Part shown: positions 14,280 through 59,665 of the stretch, piece by piece
How positions within the stretch are numbered: the first letter of the stretch is position 1
Layout: each line of letters opens with the position of its first letter
Source of the DNA: Plicaturopsis crispa FD-325 SS-3
Lineage: Eukaryota; Basidiomycota; Agaricomycetes; Amylocorticiales; Amylocorticiaceae
Reading direction: 5' to 3'
DNA: 64,000 bases
Assembly (NCBI GenBank): GCA_000827205.1
Contig: KN832566.1
Span: 700,543 to 764,542, forward strand
Notes under the pieces: model-generated
Seen by the model: the letters and a program-made list of their open reading frames with translations, nothing else
Told to the model about the DNA's origin: nothing
Database searches by the model: none
Position numbers and translations under genes: made by a program

Positions 14280-15208
14280 CTTAGCGATCGAGGATACTTG
14301 AGGATATGTAGGGCTTTAGTTTCTTTCAGAGCCGTGTGTTGTCGAGAAAGTGAGCTGCAGCTGGACGTTTCAAGGAAATTGAACAAGGGTAGTACTTATG
14401 GTGAAGAAAGAGACTCGGGCCACACTTGGCCGCGGCGGTGGCGTACGTCACCTCTCCCCTTTACCACGACGTCCGTGGCACTCGCACAGTACTGCTCTCG
14501 ACGACGCTCGTCCGCTTTCCTATGCAACTGAAGCGGCGAAGAGCACAATAAGAAGTTGGGATGGTACGAATATATGTTACAAATCACTAGTACTGGGCTA
14601 TGATGTTTAAGCACGTATCTCCCTTCTCGAGCTCTCTCAAAAGAGTGGGCTCGCTGTCACTTGCTGCTTCCGTCAGAGTTACCCTAAAAATGTTAGGCCA
14701 TGACCTCTCCGTCGCACCAATGACATCCAGTCGAATCTGACGTTGACATCCAGAGAGCACTGACTTATGCGGCGGGCGCAATGGTTATCTCTTGTGCTTA
14801 AAGACAATTTTGTTATTCTTCAACAACTCCACAGTGCAGCATCCGTAGCGGAAGAAGGAGTCAGGAAGATCAACCACAGGGACAATGGACTAGGTCAAGG
14901 ACAGATTCAGAACGACTTCTTCCCGAGGCTTTACTTAGTAGAAGTCAGTCCGCCCTGAAAATTTAAGTGACACGAAAATTTCCACACATCTCCATTCCAA
15001 AAATCAAAAGCGTCTATACACCGGTGTAGGGAATATTGGCACACTGGTCTATCCTACAAAGTGTTCGTCGGACTCGGAGACTCGGATCGTCCCAATTAAG
15101 CGAAAGCGTTGAGTAGCGCAGAAGCTCCCAAATGCGGAAGTGTTATGTATATGCTCAATCTCAGTGGCCTTTGTCCTCATCTCCACCATTAAAGAACGAC
15201 TTTCATCT
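14280..15208. other. Intergenic stretch, promoter side of the UBX gene
   Basis: About 930 bp between the UBX start codon and the tRNA gene. I see no conserved protein, RNA fold or repeat in it. Confidence 0.45.
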
Positions 15209-15309
15209 GCCCCATGGCTAAGTTGGTCAAAGCGTCCGACTGTTACAGCATTGGTTGCCTCGGCACCTACTGGCATCGGAAGGTCCTGAGTTCGAGCCTC
15301 AGTGGGGCA
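15209..15309 (+). tRNA. tRNA-Asn (anticodon GUU) with a 29-nt intron
   Basis: The acceptor stem GCCCCAT pairs with GTGGGGC (15302-15308) with discriminator A. The D arm is GGCTAAGTTGGTCAAAGC. The anticodon stem TCCGA pairs with TCGGA (15276-15280). The T arm CTGAG-TTCGAGC-CTCAG is perfect. The anticodon loop is CU-GUU-A...A with GTT at 15242-15244. The intron occupies 15246-15274, just after base 37, the standard place for nuclear tRNA introns. A run of six T follows at 15311-15316 as a Pol III terminator. Confidence 0.93.
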
Positions 15310-15310
15310 G

Positions 15311-26403: not shown

Positions 26404-27380
26404 TCATTCCACGACCTTGGCCAAATCCAGCGCCCCCGCATTCCCAATTACTGTGTATCCGTTCCCATCCGCGCCGTCGTCCTTAGTCGCCCCAACAGTG
26501 GACGGGAGTGCAGCAGAGCCCAGGCGGCCAGCATTGACGACTGCCTTGCCGAGGAGGGAGACGTTTATCTCGAGCGAGGAGCTGATATACGAGAGCGGGC
26601 CGGTTATACAGCTGTATTTGCCATGGTGTTAGTCGGTACTTCGTGATACTGTTTTATTTGAGACGACATACCCAAGAGCATATTCCAGCGGTCTGAATTT
26701 AGGCCTGTGGGTGCCCACAAGAAATCCGGGGCGGAAGATAATGGCGTCCTTGTATCCGAGTGATGCGAGGCCCTGTTCCGTCAGACCTTTGCTCCTAAGG
26801 ACGAAACTGCATGAGCGGACAAGTCAAGTAGACATTGGGTCGCACAACGGACTTGGTGTAGAGGAACGACGACGAAGCGTTCGCGCCTGCTGACTATACT
26901 TGCCAATGACGCTGTTAGAGATACGGCCGGGCAACCGATTGATATGCAGGCGGCAGACGTACGGAGACATATACGACGCGTTGGTCGGCACCTTCAGTCC
27001 TTGCGGCGCGTGCAGCGTTGAGAACATACTCCCTGTCGATCCGCTCAAACGCCTCTGCACTCCCTGCGTTCTTCCGTGACGTTCCTAGCCTGCATGCGGT
27101 AAAGTTGTGAGCTCAGTACCTCAAGCTACCCAAGCCAAGTCCGGGATACATACGTGATGAATACGACATCCCATATCTTGTCCTTTAGACCACTCTCCTC
27201 GATCTTCTCGAAGTCGATGATCTTTTGCTCGAGCTTGTCCTTGCCGACTGTAATCTCGTCCAGCGGGGTGAGGCGTCTCCCGTACTCACCGACGTGGGTG
27301 AAATACTTGGAAGCAAGGAGCACCTTTAGGACGTGCTGTCCTGTCTGTCCTGTCGCACCTAGAATAAGAGCAGAAGGCAT
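26404..27380 (-). CDS. FMP52: Fmp52-like NAD(P)-binding protein, copy B
   Basis: The start ATG at 27378-27380 gives MPSALILGATGQTGQHVLKV, nearly the same as copy A, then VGEYGRRLTPLDE and WDVVFIT. Later exons read LGTSRKNAGSAEAFERIDRE, then SSSFLYTKSKGLTEQGLASL, DAIIFRPGFLVGTH, ITGPLSYISSSLEINVSLLG, and the end GYTVIGNAGALDLAKVVE. The stop is at 26404-26406. All exons join in frame, so the copy looks intact. It has one more intron than copy A, splitting the TKSK motif with a GTCCGT donor, and a changed stretch before the last intron. The Rossmann loop and Tyr-xxx-Lys motif are kept, so it probably still binds NAD(P). It lies in opposite orientation to copy A, about 9.7 kb away. Confidence 0.8.
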
Positions 27381-27756
27381 GCTGAAGGGTATATATTTGG
27401 CGAATTGACCGGTCTATGGAATGTTGAACGCAGGACGCGCAAGTTCAGAGGGTGATATGACGCGTTCGACTTTCGTTCTCCGCGGCGCGTGTAGAAATCG
27501 TATCGAAAATGAGTGCGTCGAGGAGGACACTTCGCTTTCTGGCTCTCTCGCAAGTCTTGCAAAGTCAAAGGAAGAAGATCGTTCAAAATCATAATACTTC
27601 GAGGGCTGGGTACTACAATACAAATTAACCGCGCAGACACACAACAGTTGGAATGTACGCAGTAAGGAGTCATTTCAACGAAAAACGAAGCCGTAAACAC
27701 TAGTGTCCAAGATCACTACCGAAACAAAATCACTCGAATCACGAATAGAAAAACAT
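27381..27756. other. Spacer between copy B and the repeat-protein gene
   Basis: 376 bp holding the promoter of Fmp52 copy B and the 3' flank of the repeat-built gene, which lie head to tail on the minus strand. No other feature. Confidence 0.4.
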
Positions 27757-29672
27757 TTAGTTGAGGTCGTTGAGGTCGAGCTCGCGGCTGAAGAGACCCT
27801 CGAGTGCTTGGATGCCCTGAGTGACGACGGCGTTGGCGGCTCCACCGGCGACACCTCCAGCAACTTGGCCTCCGGCACCCTTGGCAAGCGAACCGAGACC
27901 GCGCGCCTCAAGTTCTCGGCTGAAGAGGCCCTCCAGCGCTTGGATGCCCTGGGTCACAACTGCGTTGGCCGCACCTCCGGCGACACCGCCTGCAACCTGT
28001 CCTCCGGCGCCCTTTGCAAGAGAGCCAATGCCGCGCTCCTGGAGCTCGAGCTCACGGCTAAAGAGGCCCTCGAGGGCCTGGATACCCTGGGTCACGACGG
28101 CGTTGGCGGCACCTCCTGCGACACCGCCAGCAACTTGTCCTCCAGCACCCTTGGCAAGCGAGCCGAGGCCGCGCGCCTCAAGCTCACGGCTGAAGAGACC
28201 TTCGAGGGCCTGGATACCCTGAGTTACAACAGCGTTTGCGGCGCCTCCGGCGACACCACCAGCTACTTGTCCTCCGGCGCCCTTCGCGAGCGAACCGAGA
28301 CCACGCTCCTCGAACTCACGGCTGAAGAGGCCCTCGAGTGCTTGGATGCCCTGAGTGACAACCGCGTTGGCGGCTCCACCTGCGACACCACCCGCGACCT
28401 GTCCTCCGGCGCCCTTCGCGAGCGAACCGATACCGCGCTCCTGGAGCTCGAGCTCACGGCTGAAGAGACCCTCGAGCGCTTGAATGCCCTGGGTAACGAC
28501 TGCGTTTGCCGCGCCTCCGGCGACACCGCCAGCAACCTGGCCTCCGGCGCCCTTCGCGAGCGAACCGAGGCCACGCGCCTCGAGTTCACGGCTGAAGAGA
28601 CCCTCGAGGGCCTGGATACCCTGGGTCACAACTGCGTTGGCGGCTCCACCGGCGACACCACCCGCAACTTGGCCTCCAGCACCCTTGGCAAGCGAGCCGA
28701 GGCCACGTGCCTCAAGCTCACGGCTGAAGAGGCCTTCGAGGGCCTGGATACCCTGTGTTACAACGGCGTTGGCGGCGCCTCCGGCGACACCACCAGCAAC
28801 TTGTCCGCCTGCACCCTTCGCGAGGGAACCGAGCCCGCGCTCCTGGAGTTCGAGCTCGCGGCTGAAAAGCCCCTCGAGTGCTTGGATGCCCTGAGTGACG
28901 ACGGCGTTGGCGGCTCCACCTGCGACGCCACCTGCGACCTGTCCTCCGGCGCCCTTGGCAAGCGAACCGAGGCCTCGCGCCTCAAGCTCACGGCTGAAGA
29001 GGCCCTCGAGGGCCTGGATACCCTGAGTGACAACCGCGTTGGCAGCACCTCCGGCGACACCACCCGCAACTTGTCCTCCAGCACCCTTCGCGAGCGAACC
29101 GAGCCCGCGCTCCTGGAGTTCGAGCTCACGGCTGAAGAGACCCTCGAGCGCTTGGATGCCCTGAGTGACAACGGCGTTGGCGGCTCCACCGGCAACACCG
29201 CCTGCGACCTGTCCTCCAGCGCCCTTGGCAAGCGAACCGAGGCCTCGCGCCTCAAGCTCACGGCTGAAAAGACCCTCGAGTGCTTGGATGCCCTGAGTAA
29301 CGACGGCGTTGGCGGCGCCTCCGGCGACACCACCCGCAACTTGTCCGCCTGCACCCTTTGCGAGCGAACCGAGCCCGCGCTCTTGGAGTTCGAGCTCGCG
29401 GCTGAAAAGACCCTCGAGCGCTTGGATGCCCTGGGTAACGACGGCGTTGGCGGCGCCTCCTGCGACACCACCCGCAACTTGGCCTCCGGCGCCCTTCGCG
29501 AGCGAGCCGAGACCACGGACTTCGACGTCACGTCTGTGAGGAGGGACTAGTCAGATCAAAAACATTGAGATAAGATTGGAAAATAGGCTTACTGGATAGG
29601 GTGCGCGAAAGAAGGAGCGGCGGCAGAGAGGACTGCGGCGGCGGCGATGAGCGAGGTGGATGCGTGGACCAT
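27757..29672 (-). CDS. Secreted protein made of 13 tandem glycine-rich 44/46-residue repeats
   Basis: The start ATG is at 29670-29672. Exon 1 (29593-29672) codes a signal peptide, MVHASTSLIAAAAVLSAAAP, followed by SFAHPIQ. An intron at 29534-29592 (GTAAGC...CACAG) joins it in frame to one 1777-nt exon, giving 618 residues. After RDVEVR the protein is 13 repeats of GLGSLAKGAGGQVAGGVAGG, AANAVVTQGIQALEGLFSRE and a linker of LEAR, LELQER or FEER. It ends RELDLNDLN. Each unit contains a GxxxGxxxG glycine zipper followed by an amphipathic stretch, and units of 46 and 44 residues largely alternate. There is no dibasic KR or RR site between units, so classical Kex2 cutting into peptides is not supported, although each linker ends in a single Arg. 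Function unknown. Wall, surface-coating or membrane-active roles are all inference. Confidence 0.85.
27778..29520 (-). repeat. Tandem coding repeat array, 13 units of 132 or 138 bp
   Basis: The units fall at about 27805, 27937, 28075, 28207, 28340, 28478, 28610, 28742, 28880, 29012, 29150, 29282 and 29420 (position of the conserved codons for QALEG). Spacing is 132 or 138 bp. The two lengths mostly alternate, suggesting growth by a roughly 270-bp double unit through unequal exchange. Confidence 0.9.
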
Positions 29673-29868: not shown

Positions 29869-29875
29869 CTTTATA
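29869..29875 (-). promoter_or_regulatory. TATA box of the repeat-protein gene
   Basis: On the minus strand the sequence reads TCTATAAAGCCCCACCC, with TATAAAG about 197 nt upstream of the start codon. The canonical form suggests a strong, regulated promoter; the distance implies a 5' UTR of roughly 160 nt. Confidence 0.5.
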
Positions 29876-35918: not shown

Positions 35919-37479
35919 ATGGATCCAGGACCTCCACTAGTAGTCGACAACGGGACTGGGGTGCGCTATATCTCTATGTATCGCAGCGTTTTCGATTTAC
36001 AATAGCCCACAGTTCGTGAAAGTCGGATACGCCGGCTCTAACTTCCCAGAACATGGTACGTCGCAGATCACCCCCGGCCGACGCGCATGCTCAACATGCC
36101 GCGCACCCAGTATTCCCCTCTATTGTCGGACGGCCAATACTGCGAGCGGAAGAACGCGTTGGGTCGGCCGTGATCAAGGACATCATGATCGGCGACGAGG
36201 CTGCGGAGAACCGCAACTACCTGCAGGTCACGCAGCCCATGGAGCACGGCATCGTGCGCAACTGGGAGGACATGAAGCATCTGTGGGACTACACCTTCGA
36301 CGAGAAGCTCAAGGTCGACCCGCGCGGGCGGAAGGTGCTCCTCACGGAGCCGCCGATGAACCCGAAGCAGAATCGGCAGCGCATGGTGCAGGTTATGTTT
36401 GAGGACTATGGGTTCGACGGCGTGTATGTGGCTATCCAGGCAGTGCTGACGCTGTATGCGCAAGGTGCGTGCTGAGTCATGGCGAGAGAAGGCCGTGCTT
36501 GATGTGCGTGGCGTGTAGGGTTAACGACGGGCGTGGTCGTTGATTCCGGCGACGGTGTGACGCATATCGTCCCAGTATACGATGGATTTGCGCTCCCGCA
36601 CTTGACGAGCCGACTCGATATCGCCGGACGCGACGTGACGCGGTACCTCATCAAGCTCCTCCTCATGCGCGGCTACGCATTCAACCGTACAGCGGATTTC
36701 GAGACCGTCCGAGAAATCAAGGAGAAATTATGCTATGTCAGGTGAGTGCCTACCGTCAACCAATACGTGAATGCGTCGTCATGCGTGCCTCAAGCTACGA
36801 TCTCGACCTAGACCAACGGTTATCGGAGGAGACTACCGTGTTGGTCGAAAGTTATACGGTATGGCAATCCAGATTCTGCACATATGGTTTTGTTGATTTT
36901 TTTTGCATAAACCGTAGCTTCCGGATGGTCGGACAATCAAAGTTGGGTCCGAACGATTTGAAGCACCCGAATGTATGTTCCAACCTCATCTAGTCGACAT
37001 TGAGCAACCGGGTGTCGCAGGTAAGTGTCTCTTATCATTCTCCTTGTCGTCGTTACCAAATTGTTCCCGCAGAAATGCTATTCCAAACTATTCAAAACGC
37101 CGCAGTCGATATCCGGCAAGAACTGTACAAACACATTGTACTATCCGGTGGTTCCAGCATGTATCCCGGTCTTCCAAGCCGTCTGGAGAAAGAGATGAAG
37201 CAGCTCTATCTTACGCGTGTGCTCGCCGGCGACCCCACAAGACTGAACGTCCGTCAATTCTCATCCATCATCCCGTGCTCATCTCGCTGACCCTTCACGG
37301 CCATACAGAAATTCAAGATCAGGATCGAGGACCCGCCACGCCGTAAACACATGGTGTTCCTCGGTGGTGCGGTGCTGGCTGACATCATGAAGAATCGTGA
37401 CGAGTTCTGGATATCGCGAGAGGAGTGGTTCGAGCAGGGCCCGAGGGCACTGGATAAGCTTGGCCGGGGAGACAATTGA
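35919..37479 (+). CDS. ARP2: Actin-related protein 2 (Arp2/3 complex)
   Basis: Subunit of the Arp2/3 complex that nucleates branched actin filaments. The ATG at 35919 gives [14 protein letters not shown], the phosphate-1 loop of the actin fold. Further exons read [126 protein letters not shown] and [16 protein letters not shown]. It ends [11 protein letters not shown] at TGA 37477-37479. The insert PEH/EAPE and the ending distinguish Arp2 from actin and Arp3. Length and all nucleotide-binding motifs are normal. The gene has many short introns. Confidence 0.95.
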
Positions 37480-43970: not shown

Positions 43971-46683
43971 ATGTCCTCAGCAGCACCTCCTGCTCAGGGT
44001 ACCACAGCTCCGCCACAAGGAGAGTCGTCGCCGCCATCGACGCCTCTGTCGTGGGAGGGCGACCGAATGTGCGTCACTTTGTATCTATTTCTCCATGTGC
44101 CAGCCTTTAACCCGAAGATGCAGGTTTAACATCTACATATACGATTATTGCCACAAGCGAGGTTTTCGAAAAACAGCACGAGAGCTGCTGAGCGAAGCAG
44201 ATATCTCTGCGGACTCCACACCACCAATCAATGCGAGACAAGGTCTCCTATTCGAGTAAGTTATTTTCGGTCTCTACGTCGCTAACGCTTCCTCAAGTGG
44301 TTTCTTTAGATGGTGGAGCGTATTCTGGGTTTTGTTTACAGCAAAGAGCAGTGGGAGTGGTACGGAGGATGCTATGGCTTACACACAGGTAAGCTCATTA
44401 ACTTCTTCCCTCGTTTGCGGCGTCTTCGATAAGAGGTGTAATTTAACTTTGCGCGACAGCACCAAGCCCAACAACTAGCAGCGCGACAAGCTCAACAGCG
44501 GGCGCCGCAGCAGCAGCGTTATGTGAATGGTATGCAGCGGCCCCCCGGTGCTCCGATGCCCACAAACGGGCAGATACCCAACGGTGTTAACGGCCCTCCA
44601 GGTGCTCCGCCTGGTCAAGGTCCCGTGCCTAGCTCCTTTCCTATGGGTGGTCCGGGCCTCCAGCAGAACGGTATGCCCGGTCCTTCGGGCGCACCCCCTG
44701 CGCCAGGCGGCCCACCGCAGCAGCCGCAAAATTTCGGGCAGCAGATGCAAGGACAGCGACCAGGCGGCCCTCAGCAGCGCATGCCAAATGGCGTCGGCAT
44801 GCCTCCGTTCCAGTCACCTACTATGGCGCATTCACCGCAAAACCCTGGAGGCGGTCCCGGCCAACAGCACCAGCAACCTCCGATGGGCCAGCTCGGACCA
44901 TCGCCGCATCTTGCGCCCATGAACCGAGGGGGTATGCTTCCGCCCAATGGGCCGCAGGGTATGGGTAATCCGGGCCCGGGGCCGCAGACATTTCAGCAGC
45001 GTCCACCGAGCCGATCACAAACACTGACTCCCGGGCGAAGCGGTGCGGCGATGATGAACCCCAGTCCATCCATGGCAGCGCGTCAAATACCTGGTGGCAT
45101 CCCAGCTGGGGCCTACGACCCGGCTTTGACCCAAGAAATAATGCAGATCCCTCAACAAATTCTCGTCGCGATTAAAGCAGAGCTGGGTCTGGCGGATAAG
45201 GATTACCCGATGCTCACGACGGAAGACAAGGTGAGTGCCCGCAGAGTGCTGTAGCAGGCGTCAGATACTGAAAGACGCGTGCGTACAGCAAAAAATCGCG
45301 CTTGCAGCGAGGAGTCGGGGAATCAGAAACCCTCCGTTAAATAATGCCGTCGCCGGTCCATCCGATTCGAAGCTACCTATGCATCCGCAAAATCGGCAAC
45401 AACAGCAACAGCAACAACTCCAGCAGCAGCACCAGCAGCAGCAACATCAGCAGCAACTCCAACTCCAGCATCAGCAGCAGCAACAACATCTTCAGCAGCA
45501 ACAGGCGCAGCAGCGGGGTCACAAGCGGAACAGCACGTCTCCTGAAGATGTAAGATCACCTGTTCAATAACACGTAGACCCGGCATCCTTATGTTTTGTT
45601 CTTTCTAGCAGGAGCAAAAACAACAACGTAATGATTCGTCACCGCCCGATCGTAAACGCATTCGACGATCACCCAATGTTATGGAGCAGCAGAATCCACA
45701 AGTCGGGGGCCCGATGCCATATCCTCCTGTGCATCCGCAAGGTGCGGGAGGTCCAGGTCCAGGAGGCCCGCAGCAGATGCCCAACGGCATGATGCGCGGG
45801 CCAATGAATGCGCCTCCGATGAACGGGTTCCCTCCGCAAGGAATGCAGGGCATGCCCAACAATCCTGGTATGCACATGATGGGCGGGCCGCCAATGGGAA
45901 ACACGATGAGCCCTGGTATGAATCATGCCGCGTCAGGCGGGATGATAAACCCACAAATGCAACAGGTGCGTACTTGCGTATCTATTGGTCGACCGTTTCT
46001 TGACAGCCACCCTCCAGATGCAATACCAGTACCGACAGAGCATGCACAATATACACAAGAACAATTTACCGCCAGGCGCACAACCACCTGGCGGGAATGC
46101 CCAGTCGCCCGCGTCGACTGATCCTTCGTTCAACCCCAACGGCCCACCCGGTGGACCGCAGTTCCCACGTGGACCGAATCCGAACAAGCCGATGAGCAAC
46201 ATGATGCCGCCCCCGTCACCTGCTAGCGGTCCTCCGAAAGACCAATCCGGACCTAACAAGGATACAAAACCTGGCAGTACCCCGTCTAATGGCCATCCTG
46301 AGGGATCGCCACGAAATCCTCCGTCGAGCACAGGTCCCGGGCAAGGGCAGGGACCGCCAAACTCGGGCCAACCAGGTACCAATCCACCGACGCCTGTTCA
46401 GAGCAACATGACGGCTCCGTCGCCATCCGCTGTCCTGGGCAACACCAACCCTACCTCGACACCCAATCAATCGTCGCTTCCCCCGCCGGACCCGATGAAT
46501 GGCCTATTCCCGGCAGAGTTCCTAAGCGGCGTTGGATCGATTGGCGATGATTTCGACCCTACCACTATGTTCAGGAACAGCAGCGATCTCCCGTTCGGAC
46601 AAGACGAGGCAGCGTTCGAACGAGACTTTGGGCAGTGGTTCAACCAGGATGCGGTTGGATCGCTAGACATGACGAGCAAGTGA
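43971..46683 (+). CDS. LisH-domain transcription regulator, Flo8/SSDP-like, with polyglutamine
   Basis: The ATG at 43971 gives MSSAAPPAQGTTAPP. After an intron the LisH motif follows: MFNIYIYDYCHKRGFRKTAR, ELLSEADISADSTPPI and LLFEWWSVFWVLFTAKSSG, the pattern shared by fungal Flo8/Som1 and animal SSDP proteins. The rest is disordered, rich in Gly, Pro, Met and Gln, with MPNG and PPG repeats and a tract of about 25 glutamines broken by His and Leu (45397-45514). A basic NLS-like segment (PPDRKRIRRSPN) follows. The C-terminus is acidic and aromatic (FGQDEAAFERDFGQWFNQDA), like an activation domain. About six exons. Flo8-type proteins act in cAMP/PKA-linked control of filament growth and adhesion, and the same role here is inference. 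Confidence 0.75.
45397..45514 (+). repeat. CAG/CAA polyglutamine tract in the LisH gene
   Basis: Mixed CAA and CAG codons with scattered CAC, CAT and CTC encode Gln with a few His and Leu. The interrupted codon use suggests moderate rather than extreme length instability. Confidence 0.85.
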
Positions 46684-47394: not shown

Positions 47395-48674
47395 ATGGCT
47401 TTTCTCTGCTTCCATGGTCGACGCTGCTCAATAGCGGTCGTTTTCGCGTTTCTGTGTTGTGCATTCGTTCAAGCCGACAACTTGAATGTAACAGTGACGG
47501 CGACTGACCCCAGGATCGACTATACCGGTCCCTGGGTTGTTCAGGACAATGGCGGGCACACGTTCGCGGGGAATACTAGCTGCTCGATGTCCTTTTCCTT
47601 CCAAGGTGAGTTTGAGCTAGCAGCTAGAACAGTGTAGCAGACGCTAATCGCTTATCTGCAGGCTCGGCGATAGCGTACCACTCTGCCCATAATCCTAATG
47701 GCGGAGTCGCGCAGCTATCTGTAGATGGCGATAACGTAGCCGTGGTCGACGAATCGACAGGGACGACCAAGGGCGCGAATTCTACACCGGCTGTACTATA
47801 CTCGCAAGGAGGGCTCGATGCGAGTAAAACGCATACGTTGACCTTGCAATGGATTGGGCCCGGCTCTCTGGGAGGCGGCTATGTTGAGCTGTATAGCCTT
47901 GAGTACGCTCTATCTAGTTGCTATCGGGCCAATATCAGTATTGACTCTAATGCTCAATCTCAATGCGTAGATATACCCCGGCTTCTGCAAGCTCGTCAGC
48001 AGCTAGCTCACAATCAACCACAACCACCACAGCGGTACACTCGCACACCGGCGCAATCGCCGGTGGTGTGGTTGGTGGTGTGGCCGCTGTAATCATCGCA
48101 CTGGTGCTAGCCTGGTTTCTTTGGCGGAGGAGACAGCAACATGAATACGAGCACAAAGATGACTTCGAAGGTAAATCACCAAAATCCAGAGCATCTTTTG
48201 TAATCGGTTTCTGACACAGCATATGTGACAGTAAACGCGCCCTTTACGATGCAAGGAAGTTCAGTCGTGGTCTCCAGACCCTATGTGCCAACCTCTTCAC
48301 CTTCGACCGCCGTATCGATACCGAACGCATCCGTGAACAACAACAGTGTCTCCTACCTCAGCTCTTACTCCGCCGCCACACCTCGTGGTGCAGACGAGTC
48401 CAGCTACGGGGCTAGCCCCACTACCACCGCCACATCCGCACCATCTGTGCACGTTCCTCGAAATTCGTCCCAAAGCTCGCCCGTCGCGTCGAGTGTAAAC
48501 TCGTCGCATCTAGCCGCACGGAACGTGGGCTTTAGCAGCACGCTCAGCGACATCGGCGATGCGGATGTGGACCCCCCTCCCCGGTATTCAGAGCCTTCTC
48601 GGACACAAGGTCTCCCCGCTCCCCCTACTTCGCATCCGGGTCCGGAGTCGCATCAAAACACTCCATTTTCTTGA
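47395..48674 (+). CDS. Secreted-type single-pass membrane protein, receptor-like layout
   Basis: The ATG at 47395 gives a signal peptide (CSIAVVFAFLCCAFVQAD). The ectodomain reads VTVTATDPRIDYTGPWVVQD, NTSCSMSFSFQ, then GSAIAYHSAHNPNGGVAQLS and HTLTLQWIGPGSLGGGYVEL. This is the jelly-roll-like galactose-binding layout common in Agaricomycete surface proteins. A Ser/Thr stalk (SSSAASSQSTTTTTA) leads to one helix (AIAGGVVGGVAAVIIALVLA) and WFLWRRRQQHEYEHKDDF. The tail after an intron near 48170-48231 is Ser-rich, has DPPPRYSEPSRT (a PPxY-like site) and ends HQNTPFS. Three introns. No enzymatic motif. A surface sensor or adhesion role is inference. Confidence 0.68.
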
Positions 48675-56790: not shown

Positions 56791-59665
56791 ATGGCCATGG
56801 ATTCCGACCTCATAAAGACAGTGAACAAGCTGCAGGACACGTTCAGCAACCTCGGTAGGCACTGCGTTCGGTCTGTATATTGGCGTGGACCTGATGTAGA
56901 CACTGTTTGGTGCAGGCGGGGAGCTGGATATGCCCCAACTTGTCGTTGTACGTCGCTGGTTGAACGATCTCACGCGGAGAAACTTTGCTAACGGCCAGAA
57001 TCGCAGGTTGGCAGTCAGTCGGCAGGAAAATCCAGTGTCCTTGAAACGTCAGTGGTTGCTTTCCTTTTGGAATCGTCTTGCTTGGGACTGACGATATGTC
57101 TTAGCATCGTTGGCCGAGATTTCCTTCCCCGCGGGCAGGGTATCGTGACCCGTCGCCCGCTCGTCCTCCAACTCATCCACACGCCCGAGCCAGACCCAGC
57201 TTCATCCACTCCCAGAGAATGGGCGCAGTTTCTGCACATAGACAAACGCTTCACGGACTTCAATGAGATAAGAAAGGAGATAGAACAGGAGACGTTCCGT
57301 GTTGCGGGGCAGAACAAGGGCGTCAGCAAGCTGCCTATCAGCCTGCGCATATACAGCCCGGATGTTCTGGATTTGACGTTGGTGGACTTGCCAGGCTTAA
57401 CGAAAGTGCGTAACCACGCCACTGGCTCGTATGGTCCTGCGTTTACAGTTTGCATAGATCCCAGTAGGCGACCAGCCTAGCGATATCGAACGCCAAATTC
57501 GCAATCTCGTGGTTGACTACATCTCCAAACCCAACAGGTGAGTGCAATGGAATTTACGCCCGACCTCTACCTGACCCGGCGCGAAAGTGTCATCTTATCC
57601 GTATCACCGGCGAACGTCGACCTCGCGAACTCCGAATCCCTGAAGCTCGCGCGGACGGTCGACCCCAACGGCCGAAGGACGATTGGTGTCCTTACGAAGC
57701 TCGATCTCATGGACGCGGGCACCAACGCGCTCGATATCCTCACCGGGCGCGTCTATCCGCTCAAGCTCGGGTTCATCGGCGTCGTGAATCGCAGCCAGCA
57801 GGACATCAACGTCGAAAAAAGCATGAAGGACGCGCTGGACAGCGAAACGCGCTACTTCCAGGACCACCCCGCGTATCGGAACATCGCACACAAGAACGGC
57901 ACAAAGTACCTCGCGCGGACGCTCAACCAGGTCCTGATGAACCACATCCGCGACAAACTGCCGGACATGAAAGCGCGGCTCAATACGCTGATGGGCCAGG
58001 CGCAGCAGGAACTAAACTCGTTTGGAGACTCCGCGATCTACGGCGACAAGAACCAGCAGGGCGGCTTGGTCTTGCGTCTCATGACACAGTTCGCGCGCGA
58101 TTTCGTCTCCTCAATCGAGGGAACGAACGTCGACATATCTACAAAGGAGCTCTCCGGTGGCGCGCGCATATACTATATTTTCAACGACGTGTTCGGACAT
58201 GCTCTTGCCTCCATCGACCCAACGCACAATCTCGACAACCAGGACATTCGCACTGCTATCCGTAACTCAACGGGCCCAAGGCCGAGTCTCTTTGTTCCGG
58301 AAGTCGCCTTTGACCTGCTCGTCAAGCCGCAGATCAAGCTGTTGGAGGCGCCCAGCTTACGCTGTGTCGAGTTAGTGTACGAAGAGCTGGTAAAGATTTG
58401 CCATAATTGCACCAACAATGTCAGTCTCCCACCTGCATTTTAATGAACGTGTTTTCACATATACTCGAATTTAGGAACTGTCACGATTCCCCAGGCTCCA
58501 CGCACAGCTCGTCGAAGTAGTCTCAGAGCTCCTGCGCGAACGTCTGGGACCGACTTCCGAGTACGCACAGAGTCTCATCGAGATCCAGGCGGCGTACATC
58601 AACACAAACCACCCCTCCTTCATATCCGGTTCCGCTGCTGCTGCACAAGCTGCAACTGCCCCCTCACCCCATCAAAATCACATCACGCAACGGGTACGTT
58701 TTTCTGCGCGACGTTCCCATGTTCGATACTTACTTATTTACCGCGCCTATGTAGCCCTCGTCGACCGAGCCGATAAACGGCGCACGCTCGCAAGACGACG
58801 AAGACGACGAGTCGGCGGACGACGAATCGTCCAGTGTTAATGGTATAACTCCCCGCTCGGATGGCCGCTCGGTCTCTTCCACGCTTCATGATCGCTCACG
58901 GACGGTTACCGCAGCGACCCAGTCGGGTACGCTCAGCAAAGCCTCGAAGCACCAGCACCTGCAGCACCAGCACCACCGGCATTCGACTGGCGGGCACACG
59001 CAGTCGTCGCAGAGCAGCGGCAGCGGGAGTGGGACGGCGCGGGAGACGTTCTTGAACTATTTCTTCGGGCAGAACGGTCCTGGGCCTATTGCGGGCTCTA
59101 ATATGGACCGTCAGGCGAACGGCGGCGGAGGGACGCAGCAGCATAACGCGATCATTCCTGTTGGGCGTGATGTTTCTGCAGATAACTCCCTGTCTTCGGG
59201 GCTTATGGCAGGGAAGCGGTCCATGGACGGTAACAATGCCGCTTACGATATGAAGAGCCTTGGGCGGCACATCGAGGCTGTGAGTCGATGTGTTTTCCGA
59301 GTATGACTATTTGTCTGATGCATAAATTCCTCCAGATCTCACCCATGGAGGGTGGACCTCAATTGACAATGAGGGAAGAGATGGAGACGTCTCTTATACG
59401 GTCGCTTATAGCTTCGTACTTCACCATCGTCCGCCAGAGCATCCAAGACCTTGTCCCAAAAGCTATCATGCACTTCCTCGTCAACTTCACCTCGCAACAG
59501 GTCCAAAACCGGCTGGTGTCGTCGCTCTACAAGCCTGACCTCTTCACGGATCTGCTGAACGAGGACGAGGGGCTGGTCGCGGAGAGGACGCGGGTGAAGG
59601 CGCTGCTGGACGCATACAAGGAGGCGTTCAAGACCTTGTCGGACGTTAATCTGAAATCTTCGTAG
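56791..59665 (+). CDS. DNM1: Dynamin-related GTPase Dnm1 (mitochondrial and peroxisomal fission)
   Basis: Large GTPase that assembles in rings to divide mitochondria and peroxisomes. Two in-frame ATGs at 56791 and 56797 give [20 protein letters not shown]; the first is used here. GTPase motifs are complete: G1 [14 protein letters not shown], switch region [21 protein letters not shown]3 [11 protein letters not shown]4 [10 protein letters not shown]. An intron at about 57539-57590 joins YISKPNS to [20 protein letters not shown]. The middle domain reads [18 protein letters not shown] and [20 protein letters not shown]. Insert B is long and disordered, with an acidic [16 protein letters not shown] run and a His/Gln stretch. 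The GED at the C-terminus reads [32 protein letters not shown]. It ends at TAG 59663-59665. The PANVDL and IHxD motifs fit Dnm1 better than Vps1. Confidence 0.93.

Follow-up and report, generated by a model that had tools for sequence, protein, structure and literature searches.

A 13-unit tandem-repeat gene of Plicaturopsis crispa encoding a predicted secreted protein and candidate LxxR-processed precursor

The window analyzed here is a stretch of 64,000 nucleotides from Plicaturopsis crispa FD-325 SS-3 (contig KN832566.1, positions 700,543 to 764,542). The array gene lies on its minus strand at 27757..29672 (ATG to stop) and encodes 618 amino acids after splicing. Exon 1 (29593..29672, 80 nt, ATG at 29672) encodes a signal peptide-like segment (residues 1 to 23, MVHASTSLIAAAAVLSAAAPSFA) followed by HPIQ. 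This was deduced from hydropathy (Kyte-Doolittle value of 2.52 over 9 residues) and from inspection, in which LIAAAAVL was taken as the hydrophobic core and SFA was found to precede the H. The predicted 59-nt intron (29534..29592) has a GTAAGC donor, a CTGAC branch-like site, and a TCACAG acceptor. When GT or GC donors 20 to 199 nt after the ATG and intron lengths of 40 to 109 nt were scanned, one alternative open splice solution was obtained, a 71-nt intron with a GC donor. Exon 2 (27757..29533) contains the array of 13 units (27760..29514) and the stop codon (27757-27759), each unit being composed of a near-invariant 39-residue core, GLGSLAKGAGGQVAGGVAGGAANAVVTQGIQALEGLFSR, and an acidic spacer. 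A TATAAA sequence at 29870..29875 on the same strand, 203 nt upstream of the ATG, is a possible promoter element, although it is a single hexamer for which the chance level was not computed. An initial annotation of this DNA, which gave no strand, was confirmed from the sequence in its coordinates, its length of 618 residues, its 13 units of 44 or 46 residues, its 59-nt intron, and its open frame. Its description of a secreted tandem-repeat protein is likewise supported. The locus is probably an intact two-exon minus-strand gene, and its expression is predicted.

Each of the 13 units begins with G[LI]GSLAKG, and the first is joined to the signal peptide by HPIQRDVEVR. Only 2 of 507 core residues differ from the consensus, both being Leu to Ile at position 2 (L2I), and the remaining protein differences between units are confined to the spacers. 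These were ELELQER (five copies), ELEAR (six), EFEER (one), and a terminal ELDLNDLN (one). Spacers 1 to 7 are, in order, ELELQER, ELEAR, ELELQER, ELEAR, ELELQER, ELEAR, and ELEAR, and spacers 8 to 13 are ELELQER, EFEER, ELEAR, ELELQER, ELEAR, and the terminal ELDLNDLN. Units 1, 3, 5, 8, and 11 are consequently long and units 2, 4, 6, 7, 9 (EFEER), 10, and 12 short, ahead of the terminal unit of 47 residues, and the claim that units of 44 and 46 residues mostly alternate was correct by this order. Independent detection of the array by TRF gave 12.9 copies of 132 nt with 81% matches and further periods of 270 nt (6.5 copies) and 402 nt (4.3 copies).

Selection was analyzed over 42 aligned codons (39 core and 3 spacer) in all 78 unit pairs. 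The mean pS was 0.498 and the mean pN 0.0065, corresponding after Jukes-Cantor correction to a mean dS of 0.82, a mean dN of 0.0065, and a ratio of 0.008. Nucleotide identity between units ranged from 79 to 92% (mean, 86%), and among the 39 core codons, third positions accounted for 35 variable columns, first positions for 1, and second positions for none. The protein sequence of every copy is held by strong purifying selection, as in polyubiquitin, itself not a secreted protein. The mean codon mismatch between units was 0.42 compared to 0.54 when codons were dealt randomly per residue, and the synonymous sites are therefore well toward saturation but short of it. The high dS, the low dN, and the third-position variation together imply that the array is neither young nor freshly homogenized. 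Thus, of the three histories proposed initially, selection was upheld by the dN/dS ratio, while a young array and recent homogenization of the DNA were rejected on the mean dS and the codon mismatch.

Growth of the array by a double unit had also been proposed, and this was rejected because units two apart were at the random level of mismatch (0.426 versus 0.416 in random orders, P 0.64). Furthermore, units sharing a spacer were not significantly closer (P 0.20). Units four apart had a mismatch of 0.336 compared to 0.417 in random orders (P 0.002, or approximately 0.024 after correction for 12 lags), and this was the only low lag among the 12. Of 91 pairs formed by codon sites with two states, 60 showed four-gamete combinations, which suggests exchange between units, so that dS is an average over a mosaic rather than an age. 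From the lag, spacer, and four-gamete results it was concluded that the alternation in length is real, yet the present units are not simple descendants of a repeated pair. The array may undergo slow concerted evolution, and dS could be raised further by selection for unlike codons, which would protect the repeats from recombinational loss. The nearest printed parallel seen is that of the polyubiquitin genes, described in the available part of PMC10457151, which are likewise head-to-tail repeats encoding the same protein with synonymous differences; repeats with many such differences are held there to evolve in concert, slowly. The protein is unrelated to that of the array, and the analogy is limited to protein identity with synonymous divergence.

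The codon usage showed strong preferences for some residues, with AAG used for 13 of 13 Lys, AAC for 15 of 15 Asn, and TTC for 14 of 15 Phe, and with AGA, AGG, and CGG used for none of 27 Arg. Such strong preference is typical of highly expressed fungal genes, and high expression is therefore suggested for the array gene by these codons. The bias was mixed overall, since the 45 Gln codons were divided between CAG (27) and CAA (18), the 119 Ala used all four codons (GCG 25, GCA 23), and GGA accounted for 34 of 143 Gly.

The 595 residues following the signal peptide contain 27 Arg and 13 Lys, with all of the Lys in SLAK|G. The contexts of the Arg were LFSR|E (13), LEAR|G (6), LQER|G (5), VEVR|G (1), FEER|G (1), and PIQR|D (1). 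Twenty-six of them lie exactly at the ends of cores, while the remaining one (PIQR) opens the spacer-like DVEVR. The last unit also keeps LFSR|E, giving the same predicted ends for all 13 cores. LxxR was found at 24 of the 27 Arg, and Leu, Val, or Pro occupied P4 in 26. No adjacent basic residues occur in these 595 residues, which confirmed the reported absence of a dibasic site. Processing would still be possible because LxxR is accepted by Kex2. In the available text of PMC8528282, the Kex2 rule is given as Arg at P1, Leu or another aliphatic residue including Val, Ala, and Pro at P4, and a variable P2. LXXR was strongly preferred in a yeast library screen (PMC6258133, available in part). 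Similarly, several products of Coprinopsis KEX2-processed repeat proteins (KEPs) expressed in Pichia were apparently cut after a single Arg, and three kex2 genes are stated for C. cinerea and other agaricomycetes (PMC9769878, same limit).

The 24 LxxR sites compare to a mean of 3.1 and a maximum of 12 in 5,000 whole-protein shuffles, a comparison in which repeat copies are counted as independent. They are copies of three site types. Leu was present at P4 in three of the six distinct site types, with P 0.024 from the Leu content of the protein itself and P 0.008 from the rate of 12/153 in four other, hand-chosen ORFs of the window, while an aliphatic residue or Pro was present in five of the six (P 0.051). 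When a single unit was shuffled 100,000 times, both Arg had Leu at P4 in 1.1% of the trials. These site statistics are suggestive, not strong. Moreover, 21 of the 27 sites carry at P2 a residue (Ser in 13, Ala in 6, and Val and Gln in 1 each) outside Lys and the five next best residues given in the available part of PMC8528282, and cutting by Kex2 could accordingly be poor at such sites. A literature search, in which the matching papers were covered in part, found no repeat precursor with LxxR between its units.

The 39-mer has a net charge of +1, or 0 without its Arg, and the spacers range from −1 to −3. Across three joined units, hydropathy over 19 residues peaked at 0.94, which is below the usual values for membrane helices. 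The motif GxxxGxxxG occurs once per core, as had been noted, but at least as many were obtained in 41% of 20,000 core shuffles (P 0.41). A special glycine zipper was rejected on this basis, the motif not being in excess over the glycine content, and a literature search for glycine zippers in fungal or secreted proteins gave no match. Amphipathicity was assessed for the whole core and four sub-segments with uncorrected P values. The moment of the whole core as a helix was 0.10 (P 0.59 by shuffling), while higher moments were obtained toward the two ends, namely 0.48 for the last 15 residues (P 0.03) and 0.32 for the first 11 (P 0.02); the P values for the first 26 and the last 18 residues were 0.57 and 0.06, respectively. 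The amphipathic stretch described earlier is thus retained as a leaning of the two ends and does not extend to the core as a whole. The core of unit 1 (29398..29514), which is the predicted released 39-mer, was modeled alone by AlphaFold without an alignment as one helix spanning residues 2 to 37 (mean pLDDT 87.7, pTM 0.45), with pLDDT values of 73.8 to 87.7 over five models. AlphaFold often yields helices for lone short peptides. Exon 2 (591 aa), modeled in the same way, gave a mean pLDDT of 42.8 and no usable model of the chain.

Profile searches assigned the protein to no family. Exon 2 had one Pfam match (E 0.48, 11.4 bits, below the cut-off of 25.1), and a 187-aa piece had five, all below cut-off (best E 0.0031, 17.6 bits versus 27). 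There was no match among NCBIfam profiles, so that no Pfam or NCBIfam family, glycine-zipper families included, was above its curated cut-off. A 290-aa piece used as the query against PDB sequences gave 4 matches with E no higher than 1, the best at E 0.1. Pattern searches matched 1 stretch in viral contigs and 29 in prokaryote genomes, with 0 confirmed in either, and none in plasmids; absence from these collections says little, as they are not fungal genomes. Five peptide strings from the array did not occur in the literature searched. A paralogue in the window was rejected after an array-masked tblastn with the core, for which the best hit (E 0.012 over 16 residues) was one Gly/Ala match among many. 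The segment at 48050-48097 (+), GAIAGGVVGGVAAVII, resembles a Gly-rich membrane helix, and its weak similarity to the core (E 0.012) was taken as compositional.

The surroundings were scanned against Pfam (E ≤0.01) using 39 of the 140 window ORFs of at least 130 codons and one shorter ORF, besides the array. Families above their curated cut-offs were KH, 3-beta-HSD with related NAD families, dynamin, actin, phosphomethylpyrimidine kinase, and START, and no sign of a peptide-making cluster was seen among these 40 ORFs. The dynamin-family exon is at 57517-58440 (+), its closest solved chains being Dynamin-1-like protein (E 1.6e-97), and actin-family stretches are at 36020-36472 and 36918-37343 (+) (E 8.9e-32 and 2.7e-05, the second below cut-off). 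A short ORF at 27126-27380 (−), beginning with MPSALILGATGQTGQHVLKVLL, starts 376 nt past the stop of the array gene on the same strand and matches an NAD(P)-binding profile weakly, at a score below cut-off (E 0.0065). An Rfam tRNA match at 15208-15310 (+) (54.9 bits) is 103 nt long and so probably contains an intron; ARAGORN in its bacterial setting found no tRNA. A CAG/CAA-type repeat with periods of 3, 15, and 27 is present at 45396-45514.

Several known classes of secreted protein or precursor were considered. A hydrophobin was excluded, as hydrophobins have eight cysteines and the 595 residues beyond the signal peptide lack Cys. The same residues contain no Tyr, which excluded a dikaritin (ustiloxin-type) RiPP precursor. 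No UstY-type (DUF3328) profile was matched (E ≤0.01) among the 40 window ORFs scanned, a search in which split exons could be missed, and HxxHC, the UstY-type motif, had 7 single matches in the six frames of the window. An alpha-pheromone-like precursor was also rejected, since the spacers ELELQER, ELEAR, EFEER, and ELDLNDLN are without the repeated XA/XP dipeptides (STE13 motif) that would follow the Kex2 site in such a precursor.

The closest resemblance in layout was to Rep1 of Ustilago maydis, which, in the available part of PMC4617103, has 652 aa, 12 repeats of 34-55 aa, and ten peptides of 35-53 aa. Both proteins are secreted (predicted for the array protein) and similar in length (652 versus 618 aa), in their mostly tandem repeats (12 versus 13), and in unit size (34-55 versus 44-46 aa), and both have sites for processing between units, known in Rep1 and predicted here. 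In contrast, the Rep1 repeats are imperfect and amphipathic, while the array cores are nearly identical and, as a whole (moment 0.10, P 0.59), not amphipathic, with a leaning that way in their last 15 and first 11 residues, a comparison made by description. The array protein also differs in its sites, each a single Arg and most of the LxxR type, and in its lack of a dibasic site. The initial annotation had set it apart from Rep1 on the latter ground; this difference stands, but the contrast is weakened by the single-Arg sites that flank every core. KEPs share with the array protein a signal peptide, here assigned by inspection and hydropathy, and three or more repeats separated by putative cleavage sites (PMC6339444, PMC7329392, PMC9769878, each available in part). 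The 13 units of 44-47 aa fall within the definition, which asks for three or more tandem repeats, each 8 to 100 aa long (PMC7329392). The surveys rely on dibasic sites, namely KR/RR and then KK (PMC6339444), KR/KK/RK/RR (PMC7329392), or KR/RR/KK/RK supplemented by visual screening of proteins shorter than 300 aa (PMC9769878), and none of these pairs is found in the 595 residues. Under the published dibasic definition, as far as these partial sources give it, the array protein is not a KEP; that it works like one is suggestive but unproven. The extended LxxR motif is shared with Kex2-processed pro-domain effectors and LxxR substrates, although in such effectors an N-terminal pro-domain is lost, whereas in the array protein LxxR recurs throughout the repeats (PMC8528282, same limit).

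We hypothesized that the array protein is a secreted, LxxR-processed polyprotein precursor working like Rep1 and probably yielding a self-associating surface peptide, a proposal that we regard as evenly poised between right and wrong. The signal peptide would be removed first. A kexin-type protease of the late secretory pathway would then cut after the single Arg bounding each core, at LFSR|E on the C-terminal side and at LEAR|G, LQER|G, VEVR|G, or FEER|G on the N-terminal side. The products would be 13 copies of one 39-residue peptide plus short acidic spacers, and a Kex1-type carboxypeptidase may trim the Arg to leave 38 residues. The peptide, predicted to form a helix that is rich in Gly and Ala and close to neutral, would most likely self-associate and, by analogy with the Rep1 peptides of Ustilago, coat the hypha or some other surface. 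Its near-neutral charge, helical form, lack of Cys, and production in 13 copies would suit a coat that self-assembles more than a peptide with a lytic or signaling function. The surface or membrane role suggested in the initial annotation likewise stays conjectural.

The invariance of the cores counts against the precursor model insofar as it is equally expected of an intact self-assembling protein. A modular secreted or wall protein, in which 13 joined helical units with ELEAR/ELELQER linkers form a fibrous or elastic coat, would agree with the absence of a dibasic site, and purifying selection on identical modules would suit a repetitive scaffold as well, with the charged spacers of two lengths serving as hinges. 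Such a linker needs neither Arg at the core ends (26 of 27) nor Leu, Val, or Pro at P4 (26 of 27), and LFSR is kept in the terminal unit though no unit follows it; we consider the intact protein to be somewhat unlikely, while still deserving weight. Less probable again is that processing is confined to the R|G sites or is the work of another protease, for which a yapsin-type or an extracellular trypsin-like enzyme would be candidates, yielding 44/46-mers or mixed fragments with a membrane-active or signaling role. The near-identity of the cores compared to the variable spacers points instead to the core as the product, and the 39-mer, at +1 or 0 when trimmed, has a near-neutral charge that would be unusual for a lytic peptide. 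Cutting of this kind is nevertheless favored by the Glu at P2 of LQER and FEER, which is among the five best alternatives where LFSR has Ser (PMC8528282, in part), and by reported products of other KEPs, some ending after a single Arg and many in Lys (PMC9769878, in part).

A further alternative, that there is no coding constraint on the minus strand and that the array is an unexpressed repeat or a gene of the other strand, was considered very improbable. A plus-strand frame of 617 residues is indeed open at 27697-29547. This frame shares the codon register of the gene, where TTA, CTA, or TCA codons alone could close it, and it is open because the spliced gene contains none of them. The variation at minus-strand third positions (1, 0, and 35 over the 39 core codons) would correspond to first positions of the antisense codons, and an antisense gene was rejected on these two grounds.

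The array protein could represent a hidden class of fungal multicopy peptide precursors in which monobasic LxxR sites replace dibasic sites, possibly served by a specialized kexin paralogue, and which the KEP surveys, in the parts available, did not seek; we put this wider idea forward tentatively, as having a lesser but real chance of being correct. With no dibasic site and with 618 aa, compared to the limit of 300 aa in the visual screen, the array protein would be missed by the published KEP pipelines as described in those parts. In one survey, 69,264 tandem-repeat proteins were reduced to 7,878 by the dibasic rule, and further LxxR precursors could be among the remaining 61,386 (PMC7329392, in part). 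If the units are freed at LxxR, then dibasic-site counts would underestimate the secreted peptides of fungi, and the search rule should change. The combination of an almost fixed protein sequence with diverged synonymous codons offers, independently of the protease, a simple sequence test for arrays in which every unit matters.
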